NCBI GenBank assembly: GCA_022649305.1 | Contig: JALCNW010000001.1 | Span: forward strand, 1 to 64,000 | Direction: 5' to 3' | DNA length: 64,000 bases | Source of the DNA: Enterobacter sp. | GTDB lineage: Bacteria; Pseudomonadota; Gammaproteobacteria; Enterobacterales; Enterobacteriaceae | Part shown: in pieces, positions 59,421 to 64,000 of the stretch | Position numbering within the stretch: the stretch's first letter is position 1 | Layout: each line of letters starts with the position of its first letter | Notes under the pieces: generated by a model | Told to the model about the DNA's origin: nothing | The model's input: only the letters and a program-made list of their open reading frames with translations | Databases searched by the model: none | Translations under genes and position numbers: made by a program

Positions 59421-59505
59421 GCCGAAGTGGCGAAATCGGTAGACGCAGTTGATTCAAAATCAACCGTAGAAATACGTGCCGGTTCGAGTCCGGCCTTCGG
59501 CACCA
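59421..59505 (+). tRNA. leuX: tRNA-Leu(CAA)
   Basis: An 85-base class II tRNA. The anticodon stem GTTGA/TCAAC encloses TTCAAAA, giving CAA; the long variable arm, the TTCGAGTC T-loop and encoded CCA are present. The sequence appears identical to E. coli leuX. Its 3' end is a favoured integration site for P4-like elements, and an integrase gene follows here. Confidence 0.98.
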
Positions 59506-59691: not shown

Positions 59692-60957
59692 ATGGCTCTA
59701 ACAGATATCAAAGTCAGAACAGCCAAGCCAACGGATAAGCAATACAAGCTGACCGATGGCAACGGTATGCATCTTCTCGTCCACCCAAATGGTTCAAGAT
59801 ATTGGCGTCTGCAGTACCGCTTTGGAGGAAAGCAAAAGATGCTGGCTTTAGGTGTTTATCCTGAAGTGTCTCTTGCAGATGCCAGAGCTCGTCGTGATGA
59901 TGCTCGTAAGCTTTTGGCAAATGGCATCGATCCGGGAGACAAAAAGAAAAATGATAAGGTTGAACAGGAAGAAGCGCGCACTTTTGAGGAGCTTGCTGTT
60001 GAGTGGCACGCCACAAATAAAAAGTGGTCGGAAGAACATAGCCGACGAGTGTTAAAAAGCCTAGAGGACAACCTCTTTCCAGCCATAGGTAAGCGTAATA
60101 TTGCCGAACTAAAAACGCGGGATCTTTTAGTACCCATCAAAGCTGTTGAGCTATCTGGGCGACTTGAAGTGGCTTCTAGGCTACAACAGCGCACCACGGC
60201 AATAATGCGTTATGCCGTCCAGAGCGGTTTGCTTGACTACAATCCCGCACAGGAAATGGTTGGTGCTGTTGCTTCAAGTAACAGGCAGCATAGAGCAGCT
60301 CTTGAACTGAAACGTATCCCCGAGCTTCTTCAACGCATTGGCAGCTATTCCGGTAGGCCTTTAACTCGCCTTGCCGTCGAGCTAACCCTCCTCGTCTTTA
60401 TTCGTTCCAGTGAACTGCGTTTTGCTCGTTGGTCCGAGATCGATTTTGAAACTTCTATGTGGACGATTCCAGCCGAGCGAGAAGCTATCGAAGGAGTAAA
60501 GCACTCGCAGCGTGGCTCGAAAATGCGTACGCCTCATTTGGTACCGCTTTCCCGACAGGCATTAAATATCTTGGAGCAGATAAAGACGTTCAGTGGAGAT
60601 CATGAACTGATATTTATTGGCGATCATAATCCTCGCAAACCGATGAGTGAAAACACGGTGAACAAATCTTTGCGAGTGATGGGATATGACACACAGGTTG
60701 AAGTGTGCGGTCACGGTTTCAGGACCATGGCGTGTAGTTCGTTGATTGAGTCAGGGTTATGGTCGCGGGATGCGGTAGAACGACAGATGAGCCATATGGA
60801 GCGTAACTCTGTGCGTGCGGCGTATATTCATAAAGCCGAGCATCTGGATGAGCGCAGGCTAATGCTGCAGTGGTGGGCAGATTATCTGGATGCTAATCGG
60901 GAGAAGGTAATCTCGCCTTTTGAATATGCAAAGATTAAAAACCCCTTACCATCATGA
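59692..60957 (+). CDS. P4-family tyrosine recombinase (integrase)
   Basis: 421 residues. An N-terminal DUF4102/arm-binding domain (ALTDIKVRTAKPTDKQYKL) is followed by the catalytic domain, with the first Arg in IRSSELRFARW, the HxxR motif in GHGFRTMACSS and the nucleophile Tyr in AAYIHKAEH. All catalytic residues are there, so it should be active. It lies 187 bases from leuX in the same direction, the usual arrangement for an island inserted in the tRNA 3' end. The other attachment site is outside the window. Confidence 0.96.
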   Translation: MALTDIKVRTAKPTDKQYKLTDGNGMHLLVHPNGSRYWRLQYRFGGKQKMLALGVYPEVSLADARARRDDARKLLANGIDPGDKKKNDKVEQEEARTFEELAVEWHATNKKWSEEHSRRVLKSLEDNLFPAIGKRNIAELKTRDLLVPIKAVELSGRLEVASRLQQRTTAIMRYAVQSGLLDYNPAQEMVGAVASSNRQHRAALELKRIPELLQRIGSYSGRPLTRLAVELTLLVFIRSSELRFARWSEIDFETSMWTIPAEREAIEGVKHSQRGSKMRTPHLVPLSRQALNILEQIKTFSGDHELIFIGDHNPRKPMSENTVNKSLRVMGYDTQVEVCGHGFRTMACSSLIESGLWSRDAVERQMSHMERNSVRAAYIHKAEHLDERRLMLQWWADYLDANREKVISPFEYAKIKNPLPS

Positions 60958-61043: not shown

Positions 61044-62135
61044 CTAAAATATAACCCCTGATTGTATCTCTTTTACTAGTTCACCAACGGTGAATATTTC
61101 CCAACCTTCTACTTGTACTTCAGTTAAGTTAATTGCAATTTTTAATGTTGGCCATGCTGCTTCAACGGTTGCAATAATCTCATGCGCGGAGTTCTGCAAA
61201 TCCAATCCTGGTACCGGAGGTTGGTATCCTTTGTGCTGCATAATATGAATGTCACCGTGAACAGATGGGTCAGTGAGTTCATAAATGTCTTTCCAGGAGT
61301 CAGCCTTTAGTAATCCCTGTTGAGAACGCAAGCGTTGAATAATTGCCATCTCAGCTTGAGTGACAAATATTCCTTCATGAAAAGGTTGTTTACGATGGCA
61401 ATCTTTACAAAGAACATGGAGGTTTTCTGCTGAGTTATCGTATTTAACACCATTTCTATGATGAACATCGCAGAGATGGCGTGAGGAGCTTAAATCAACA
61501 CAGCAATCATTACATTTATAACTTGCTTGTTCACGAACAGATCGAGAAATATCTTTCCAATTATCTACATAGCCACTATTTGCTTTATCATGAATACCTT
61601 TTGGCATATGACGGAAGCAGGTACTGTAGTGGGAGAAAAAATTATTTAAGGAGAACGATTTAAATATTACTCTCTTTTGTATCTTATCAATACTACCTTT
61701 ATAATTGAGTCGTTCAAGGCAATTCATGCAAACTCTCAAGTCAGCATCTTGACTGCGGCCTAAACCATCGTCAATTTCAAATAAACCATCAACACGGTTT
61801 GTTGCATGGTAGCGTTCAAAACGATTTTTCTGTCGCATCTCGTCAAGAGTTCGACACCATGCGATGTGAAATCTCTTCCCTTTTTCACCATCCTCAATGG
61901 CCGCATCATAGCGTCCCGTGTGATCTCTGATATATAAAAGGACTTGACGTCCCTGGTAGGAAATTAAGCCACTACCAGGATCAAGATCGGCAATACTAAC
62001 TTCTTTACCAGCAGATAATTCAATATCAATAGGGTCGAAGACGACAGGTGCTTCAGCAAGGGAGAATTTAGCACCAGAAGGAAGCATTTTGTTTCCTAGC
62101 GCAATTAACTCAGAAAAATCAATGGTTAACTTCAT
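61044..62135 (-). CDS. zorE: Zorya type II effector ZorE (HNH endonuclease)
   Basis: 363 residues. An HNH nuclease core is visible at ~215-265: CNDCCVDL, HLCDVHHRNG, NLHVLCKDCHRKQPF, with two zinc-holding CxxC pairs. The N-terminal ~200 residues are unfamiliar and likely contact the motor complex or DNA. In type II Zorya, ZorE is the DNA-damaging effector driven by ZorAB. It begins five bases after zorB. Codons are AT-richer than in the backbone. Confidence 0.87.
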   Translation of the reverse strand: MKLTIDFSELIALGNKMLPSGAKFSLAEAPVVFDPIDIELSAGKEVSIADLDPGSGLISYQGRQVLLYIRDHTGRYDAAIEDGEKGKRFHIAWCRTLDEMRQKNRFERYHATNRVDGLFEIDDGLGRSQDADLRVCMNCLERLNYKGSIDKIQKRVIFKSFSLNNFFSHYSTCFRHMPKGIHDKANSGYVDNWKDISRSVREQASYKCNDCCVDLSSSRHLCDVHHRNGVKYDNSAENLHVLCKDCHRKQPFHEGIFVTQAEMAIIQRLRSQQGLLKADSWKDIYELTDPSVHGDIHIMQHKGYQPPVPGLDLQNSAHEIIATVEAAWPTLKIAINLTEVQVEGWEIFTVGELVKEIQSGVIF

Positions 62136-62140
62136 TATGA

Positions 62141-62848
62141 CTATTCCTGAATAATACGGCGAATTTGCAACTCTGCATTTGTAATAACTTTAAATGTAAC
62201 CCGTCGTGAGCGGTTTGGATCTTCTTTTCCCGCAGGACTAAGAATAGGATGCGAAGATGAGTATCCCACCGCAGCAAATTTACTTTTGACCCATTTTTGG
62301 TGAGTTTCTGATTCTTTTAAACTGTATACGTATTGTAAGACTGCACGAGTTCTTCCTTGAGATAATTCCATATTATTAAAATAGGCCACATCTTGGTTAG
62401 CAGCGCCCGTCCAGTCAGTACTGGTATGCCCTTCTATACGGACTTCAGTGATATGTTGCTTATACTGGTCTAACACCCTCAAATAACGAGGAAAAAAATC
62501 GTTAAGAATTTCCTTAAACTTTGGTTTTAATTCTGAACTACCCAATCCAAAAAGAACATCCGGCGATTTAAATCTTACCTCAAGGGTTTGCTTATCTATT
62601 TCAGCATCCCAGGATGATAGATCTTTAGAAAACTCAATTTCCAAAGCATTATAAAGTTGTTGCTGAGCTTGCTCATAGGCAACAGCAACTTCTTTTATTT
62701 TTTCTTTTTCAATACGCACATAATGCATGTAAGCAATAGAAATAAACATAAATACCATCATCAGACCTGCCATCAGGTCTGACATGGAAACCCAGTGTTC
62801 GTTGTCCTGGGTGCTTTTTGGGGCTTGTTTACCAATAATCTTATCCAT
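62141..62848 (-). CDS. zorB: Zorya motor subunit ZorB (MotB/OmpA-like)
   Basis: 235 residues. One N-terminal membrane helix (SMSDLMAGLMMVFMFISIAY) carries the conserved Asp24, the ion-coupling residue of MotB-type stators. The C-terminal OmpA-like domain has the peptidoglycan-binding signature VRIEGHTSTDW and LSQGRTRAVL...NRSRRVTF. ZorB dimers anchor the ZorA pentamer to the cell wall. It lies between zorA and zorE with 5-6-base gaps. Confidence 0.92.
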   Translation of the reverse strand: MDKIIGKQAPKSTQDNEHWVSMSDLMAGLMMVFMFISIAYMHYVRIEKEKIKEVAVAYEQAQQQLYNALEIEFSKDLSSWDAEIDKQTLEVRFKSPDVLFGLGSSELKPKFKEILNDFFPRYLRVLDQYKQHITEVRIEGHTSTDWTGAANQDVAYFNNMELSQGRTRAVLQYVYSLKESETHQKWVKSKFAAVGYSSSHPILSPAGKEDPNRSRRVTFKVITNAELQIRRIIQE

Positions 62849-62854
62849 TAACTG

Positions 62855-64000
62855 TTACCCGCGATTTTGTCTGGAGTTAATTAATGGTTGTAATTGGCCA
62901 AGAACACTTTGATATTCTTTTATCAATTGATCATAATTTTTGACAAATCCTTGGCTAATTGCCAGTAATGCATTACCTAGCGATTGCATTTCCCTGTTCA
63001 TTTCACGCTCAGTTGCTTGTTCAAAAGCGTGTAGTTGTTCATTGATGGAACTACCAAAGCGCTCAACAGATTCTTTGACCTGTGAATTCAAACCAGCGCT
63101 TGCTTTGTCAAAGGTTGACTGCATGGTTCCAAACATACTGTCTGCATTATTGGATAATTGCTGATTAAATTTATCGCCTGTTTTACTAAAGAGATCAATC
63201 ACACTGATTGTATTTTGCTCCATATTACGGTGAAGTTCTTTAGAATGTGATTCAAGAGACTTCAAGAATTCATCACCACTTTGTTTCATTTCAGTAATGG
63301 TATCGCCCAGTGTTGATGTTAAAGTCTCAGAGGAGTTGCTCACATCATGTGCCATTGATGCAAATGCTTGTTGAGTCTGAGTGACAGACTGTCTGAACCC
63401 ATCAGAGCCTTCATCCAGAGCAATTCGCATCGCATTCGCATTGGCGATTAGCTCAGTCCCAGTTTGTCCCAGGGATGAGCTGACACTCAATGCGCCAGCT
63501 TTCAGCAGCTCACCCACTTCATCGAGTTTTTCGTGGATAGCCGGAACCGCATCGGTTGCTTTATCACGTAACAAAACAAAAGCATCAAGGTGTCGAGATA
63601 ACTCGCTTATTTGATGTTGGTTAACCTGCAAAACATCACGTAATTCAGCCATTGCAAGTGGGATCTCCTTGCACTCCTCCCAGATACCAGCAACTGCACC
63701 ACGAGTTTCAACTAATGATTCGACGCTTTGTTGGTACTGCGCGCCCATAAGTTCGACTTGAGTTTTATAGTTCTCCTGCCAATCGACAAGTTTTTTTACC
63801 GAAGCATCAAGTGCCTTAAAGTTATCACCGAATTGCTCAGTTAAATTATTATTAAAATCAATAATAACTTGTCTCAATGCATCAATTATTTGTTCAGTTG
63901 CACCTTTTGCCATTAAGTCCGCAAATTGTTGTAATTGTTCCCATAGCTTGTTACTAAACTCGGCATGATTTGTAATTTGTGCACGGGAGGAATCATTAAT
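62855..64000 (-). CDS. zorA: Zorya motor subunit ZorA (MotA-like), C-terminal part
   Basis: The frame is open to the window edge; the ATG at 63913 in the ORF track is internal, since codons continue upstream without a stop. The visible ~380 residues are a long, Gln/Ser/Glu-rich helical and coiled-coil tail with repeated Met/Leu heptads, as in the ZorA tail that senses invading phage. The MotA-like membrane part must lie beyond base 64000. Assignment rests on the tail plus zorB and zorE next to it. Confidence 0.85.
   Translation of the reverse strand: MNDSSRAQITNHAEFSNKLWEQLQQFADLMAKGATEQIIDALRQVIIDFNNNLTEQFGDNFKALDASVKKLVDWQENYKTQVELMGAQYQQSVESLVETRGAVAGIWEECKEIPLAMAELRDVLQVNQHQISELSRHLDAFVLLRDKATDAVPAIHEKLDEVGELLKAGALSVSSSLGQTGTELIANANAMRIALDEGSDGFRQSVTQTQQAFASMAHDVSNSSETLTSTLGDTITEMKQSGDEFLKSLESHSKELHRNMEQNTISVIDLFSKTGDKFNQQLSNNADSMFGTMQSTFDKASAGLNSQVKESVERFGSSINEQLHAFEQATEREMNREMQSLGNALLAISQGFVKNYDQLIKEYQSVLGQLQPLINSRQNRG

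Follow-up and report, generated by a model that had tools for sequence, protein, structure and literature searches.

A complete type II Zorya operon within a Zorya II-Druantia III-ARMADA II array on a leuX element of Enterobacter sp., and homology between the C-terminal domains of ZorE and ArmC

In type II Zorya, an anti-phage system already described in detail, ZorA and ZorB assemble into an ion-driven motor of 5:2 stoichiometry that has a long tail in the cytoplasm, and upon infection ZorAB brings the nickase ZorE to the membrane (PMC11890865). Zorya II cooperates with Druantia III in a phage-specific manner, via shared DNA intermediates and RecBCD (PMC13192584), and E. coli orthologues are reported to act against phages (PMC11890865, PMC13192584). 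E. coli is also reported to carry Zorya II, Druantia III and ARMADA II as an array at tRNA-Leu (PMC12458937, Fig. 5B), and the same work describes elements at tRNA-Leu that carry an integrase, AlpA, a rolling-circle replication protein and repeats of 16-20 nt.

The DNA analyzed here (the window) comprises positions 1-64,000 of contig JALCNW010000001.1 of Enterobacter sp. (GCA_022649305.1), a contig that runs on to 185,621 bases. Three adjacent reading frames at the end of the window, transcribed in the order zorA-zorB-zorE, matched type II Zorya profiles:

61044..62135, reverse strand: zorE, encoding the predicted HNH nickase effector of 363 aa (PADLOC ZorE2 PDLC00645, 9.4e-171, residues 1-361)
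62141..62848, reverse strand: zorB, encoding a MotB-like protein of 235 aa (PADLOC ZorB2 PDLC00641, 1.1e-105; Pfam OmpA)
62855..64000, reverse strand: in-window part of zorA, 381 aa (residues 170-550, part of the cytoplasmic tail), open at the window edge

The remainder of zorA lies at contig positions 64001-64507, and the whole gene (contig 62855-64507) encodes a protein of 550 aa that matches PADLOC ZorA2 PDLC00638 over residues 1-549 (1e-287). The PADLOC profiles span all three proteins end to end, and none of the three frames is interrupted or truncated. The operon is flanked by an integrase gene next to zorE and by the gene for DruH next to zorA; ZorE replaces ZorC and ZorD, and neither zorC nor zorD was found among the genes adjacent to the operon. 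Judged by these profile matches and gene order, the locus is a complete, ordinary type II Zorya operon. An earlier sequence-only reading of the window had reported the same frame positions and gene order behind an integrase at leuX, and the full-length profiles, the tRNA-Leu and the integrase bear out its assignment of the locus to type II Zorya and of the island to leuX.

That reading had also called for extension past position 64,000 to complete zorA, and had named a lack of MotA-like membrane helices in the upstream part of the gene as grounds for giving up its proposal. The completed ZorA presents hydrophobic segments by hydropathy and a Pfam MotA_ExbB domain (24.3 bits, cut-off 22.9). Although only distantly related, the solved type II ZorAB complex of Sulfuricurvum kujiense (PDB 8vvi; PMC11890865) is homologous to the Enterobacter proteins over most of their length (ZorA, 8.7e-39; ZorB against 8vvi_A, 1.7e-53), with the motor aspartate of the solved chain, D21, aligned to D24 of the Enterobacter ZorB. 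This residue lies in the N-terminal membrane helix of ZorB, which also carries an OmpA-type peptidoglycan-binding domain (Pfam OmpA, 2.3e-9). The amphipathic-helical tail of ZorA is longer in the Enterobacter locus than in S. kujiense; its earlier description as low in complexity was rejected, since its mean 45-residue entropy of 3.74 bits is close to the values for ZorB (3.85) and ZorE (3.86).

Directly past zorA, and divergent from it, lie genes encoding full-length DruH3 (2125 bits) and DruE3 (2164 bits) by PADLOC, the adjacent DruH-DruE pair that identifies Druantia III. These are followed, in this order, by ArmA-, ArmB-, ArmC- and ArmD-like proteins, whose best PADLOC matches are DrmD/BrxHII, a type IIG methyltransferase/DrmMI, a DruE-like helicase and GajB, respectively, no ARMADA-named model having matched. 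The set corresponds to the BrxHII-like ArmA, PglX-like ArmB, YprA-like ArmC and GajB-like ArmD of ARMADA II (ArmD by its GajB part), and E. coli LR-28 is annotated with a matching order and matching product types for ArmA-D. Both systems lie beyond the window, out of reach of the sequence-only reading, which overlooked the C-terminal domain of ZorE. The genes directly after ARMADA II form a candidate defense cluster, PDC-M27A/B/C (L004:12068-18010), composed of a PLD protein, an SNF2 helicase and one unnamed protein. The same island holds a PDC-M09-like membrane-protein cluster with a WYL-domain regulator (L005:1719-4927 and L004:18160-19959) and, by eye, a sulfatase-fold, phosphoethanolamine-transferase-like membrane protein (L005:5099-6865).

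The proximal border of the island falls within the window:

59421..59505, forward strand: tRNA-Leu (CAA), leuX, detected with ARAGORN; integration site of the island
59482..59499, forward strand: 18-nt direct repeat GTTCGAGTCCGGCCTTCG, within the 3' portion of leuX; presumed att site
59692..60957, forward strand: P4-type tyrosine integrase of 421 aa (Pfam Arm-DNA-bind_3, Phage_int_M and Phage_integrase)

A second copy of GTTCGAGTCCGGCCTTCG at contig positions 112431-112448 forms an exact 18-nt run, compared to a maximum of 14 in 200 shuffles, and because this piece of leuX recurs there the element is estimated at ~53 kb. An AlpA gene scoring over the cut-off (contig 105611-105757) adjoins a rolling-circle (HUH) replication-like gene (L005:7894-8508) that by eye resembles the 'inovirus Gp2' type of another island. 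On the basis of its tRNA integrase, AlpA, replication-like gene and repeat, we classify the leuX element as a satellite-like defense element of the SPIDER type.

The E. coli array (PMC12458937; LR-28) has the same arrangement at tRNA-Leu, zorE-zorB-zorA / DruH-DruE-ArmA-ArmB-ArmC-ArmD, and shares the integrase, AlpA, replication-like gene and direct repeats. The Enterobacter array differs from it in the PDC-M27ABC and PDC-M09 clusters after ARMADA, in its intact integrase directly beside zorE, and in its host, whose argF-rraB region is ~80% identical to that of E. coli. Among 5,426 complete E. coli genomes, 585 match the operon, 525 of them carrying 80% or more of it, the annotation among the matches listed being zorA2, zorB2 and zorE. 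The E. coli operons (ATCC 8739, ECOR19; RefSeq zorA2/zorB2/zorE) present the same gene order, catalytic residue numbering and C-terminal domain, with near-identical protein lengths (367 aa for LR-28 ZorE), but only 75-77% DNA identity to the Enterobacter operon. Closer relatives were found in Serratia sp. PL17 (L007) and Yersinia proxima (L010), whose ZorE proteins are 96% and 95% identical to that of Enterobacter and which have the same integrase type and adjacent DruH and DruE; the stretches compared are limited to the flanks and do not reach ARMADA. Close relatives with the same neighbors in these two genera suggest, from sequence, movement between genera. Druantia III likewise adjoins Zorya in Escherichia E1V33. 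The Zorya-integrase unit also occurs alone, as in E. coli ET350 (L006), where Zorya II and an integrase of this type are flanked by IS5 and capsule genes and no Druantia or ARMADA genes are adjacent.

Islands of this kind are often immobilized (PMC12458937) and remnants do occur, such as that in one genome (G229) where nothing but the beginning of zorA and the final part of zorE is left, so the Enterobacter operon could be conceived of as a decaying, inactive remnant. With three full-length open frames, the essential residues present and closest relatives 95-96% identical in other genera, we consider such decay highly improbable. That zorA-zorB-zorE is instead part of a Zorya II-Druantia III-ARMADA II array on a satellite-like leuX element, presumably operating by the mechanism of its orthologues, is very likely in our assessment.

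The ZorE protein can be divided into three segments:

61536..62135, reverse strand: ZorE N-terminal region, residues 1-200, with invariant H90, C94, C136 and C139
61377..61571, reverse strand: ZorE HNH core, residues 189-253, with Y189, C208/C211, H226, K231, N234, N238, C243/C246, H247 and H253
61047..61331, reverse strand: ZorE C-terminal domain, residues 269-363, homologous to the ArmC C-terminus; probable inactivated Vsr-like (PD-(D/E)xK) domain

The roles of residues in the HNH core are taken from PMC13192584 (a 2026 preprint), where the N-terminal region is named DUF8245, a name that the Pfam scan of ZorE did not return. Mutation of H90, Y189, H226, K231, N234, N238, L239, H247 and H253, singly or in pairs, abolishes or alters defense (PMC13192584), and all nine residues are present at identical numbers in the Enterobacter ZorE. 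Five of them (H90, Y189, H226, N234 and N238) are invariant across 20-21 ZorE sequences from several genera. Residue 235 is S in Enterobacter and H in E. coli, including the tested strain, where it was mutated as part of N234A/H235A (PMC13192584); it varies within the family. A fold search with the whole-ZorE model, for which pTM was only 0.55, gave no significant match. The sequence-only reading had singled out a 363-residue ZorE with an unfamiliar N-terminal region of ~200 residues. Neither trait sets the protein apart: the E. coli orthologues are of nearly equal length and have the same layout, the profiles match end to end, and the supposedly unusual N-terminus is conserved throughout the family.

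The last ~95 residues of ZorE could not be assigned to any nuclease family in PMC13192584. When the neighboring genes were scanned, the ZorE2 profile matched the ArmC-like helicase over its final ~80 residues (E 1.9e-6). Profile-profile alignment of the two C-termini with hhalign gave a probability of 98.6% and an E-value of 1.2e-15 for this single comparison, at 30% identity; reciprocal HMM searches ranged from 5e-11 to 7.5e-9, with 0 matches among 2,000 shuffled sequences. In genome searches the ZorE-side query recovers ArmC, and the ArmC-side query recovers ZorE. By these profile comparisons, the C-terminal ~95 residues of ZorE (~269-363) and the C-terminus of ARMADA II ArmC belong to one domain family; the domain stands behind helicase and active Vsr-type portions in ArmC and behind the HNH nuclease in ZorE. 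Pfam, PHROGs and PDB sequence searches returned no name for it.

In ARMADA II helicases, the active Vsr domain is followed by additional C-terminal domains that have been described as inactivated nucleases, including Vsr; the main text leaves unsaid which of them comes very last (PMC12458937). Because the ZorE tail is homologous to the ArmC end, which that work assigns in this way, it is probably an inactivated Vsr-like nuclease domain. The model of the domain (pLDDT 88, pTM 0.74) presented its best PDB fold matches to AbaSI and PvuRTs1I, at non-significant E-values of 0.32-0.82. The nuclease domains of AbaSI and PvuRTs1I are Vsr-like. The domain alignment retains E/D at position 325 and mostly K/R at 332, while position 336 carries no acidic residue in any of the 16 aligned domains (N, A, V, F, L, I, C or M). 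The catalytic residues of Vsr/PD-(D/E)xK nucleases are therefore incomplete, since no aligned domain has the acidic residue that should follow the conserved lysine.

The largely kept E325 and K332, together with a described pocket of conserved acidic and basic residues (PMC13192584), could be taken as signs of an active second PD-(D/E)xK nuclease, making ZorE a two-nuclease effector. We deem this unlikely, because position 336 is never acidic, in contrast with a Vsr-like phage protein (L084) that has the glutamate of AVEVEG at the matching position (alignment by eye), because the matching ArmC end has been described among inactivated domains (PMC12458937), and because HNH mutations alone abolish standalone defense (PMC13192584). 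As a probable inactivated Vsr-like domain, the C-terminus of ZorE would more likely hold DNA or partner proteins than cut.

A search of 369 gammaproteobacterial genomes with a combined profile gave matches in ten, mostly to ArmC-like proteins followed by ArmD, or to ZorE. The domain also occurs in a sacsin/NO VEIN-domain protein encoded next to an ArmD-like helicase, in a UvrD helicase, in a short Vsr-like protein (named from its motifs, by eye) and, from order-level searches, in a NERD-ATPase. The first of these, a 1623-aa protein ending in the domain and followed by an ArmD-like UvrD helicase (L081:4455-11513), may represent a related defense system. In another gammaproteobacterium (L076), zorA-zorB-zorE-armA-armB-armC-armD are contiguous and co-directional, as if forming one operon. 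A 237-aa protein carrying the domain lies beside a Zorya operon in a further genome (G044; L037:8632-9342), 1.4 kb upstream of its zorA gene. An apparent stand-alone copy in G229 (L036:6623-7289) was rejected as a deletion remnant joining the start of zorA to the end of zorE. One ZorE-like protein (L050:6192-7530) ends in tandem repeats (ISTQSQAHKDTETKDHEAASK...) instead of the domain. The Enterobacter genome itself encodes a second complete type II Zorya beside smpB and tmRNA (L035, contig C49, 9137-12121), with a ZorA of 482 aa, a ZorB of 226 aa and a ZorE of 283 aa that has no C-terminal domain.

The C-terminal domain is present in 53 of 59 Druantia-associated ZorE leaves (PMC13192584), and Druantia III is adjacent to Zorya here as well as in Serratia PL17, Escherichia E1V33 and Yersinia proxima, which would fit a domain that marks Druantia III-partnered ZorE and arose for that partnership. 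Among 11 divergent ZorE proteins with the domain, however, one has DruE and one has ARMADA genes nearby, and nine have neither (within ~10 kb, E 1e-8, with queries from the Enterobacter locus). The domain was thus rejected as a strict Druantia/ARMADA marker, and its origin in the partnership is possible but doubtful.

Taken together, identity, completeness, catalytic residues, neighborhood, island borders and the ZorE/ArmC homology are read from sequence, and the mechanism is drawn from the literature; expression, protection and mechanism in Enterobacter are assumed from the orthologues, and nothing in the locus argues against that mechanism. Five ZorA and two ZorB subunits would build an inner-membrane motor that is driven by ions and fixed to peptidoglycan, with the long ZorA tail in the cytoplasm. 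On phage attack, ZorAB would attract the HNH nickase ZorE, which would then nick DNA at the membrane. Druantia III, with DruH as probable sensor and DruE as helicase-nuclease, would together with RecBCD make substrates for ZorE, leading to phage-specific synergy.

With this locus, a further host joins those of a well-studied system, and the published three-system array is seen outside E. coli. Its only unusual part is the C-terminal domain of ZorE, whose link to ArmC may be its one new point: a search of the main texts of published papers found no earlier statement connecting ZorE to Vsr, and no test of cooperation between Zorya II and ARMADA II. Through this link, the segment of ZorE left unassigned by PMC13192584 gains a probable family, and Zorya II is tied to ARMADA II. 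More speculatively, and with low probability in our view, the degenerate Vsr-like domain of ZorE and ArmC, effectors of two co-traveling defense systems, might be shared on account of an identical function, namely attachment to a DNA intermediate or a partner that both use. If so, the domain would physically underlie cooperation between members of the Zorya-Druantia-ARMADA array.
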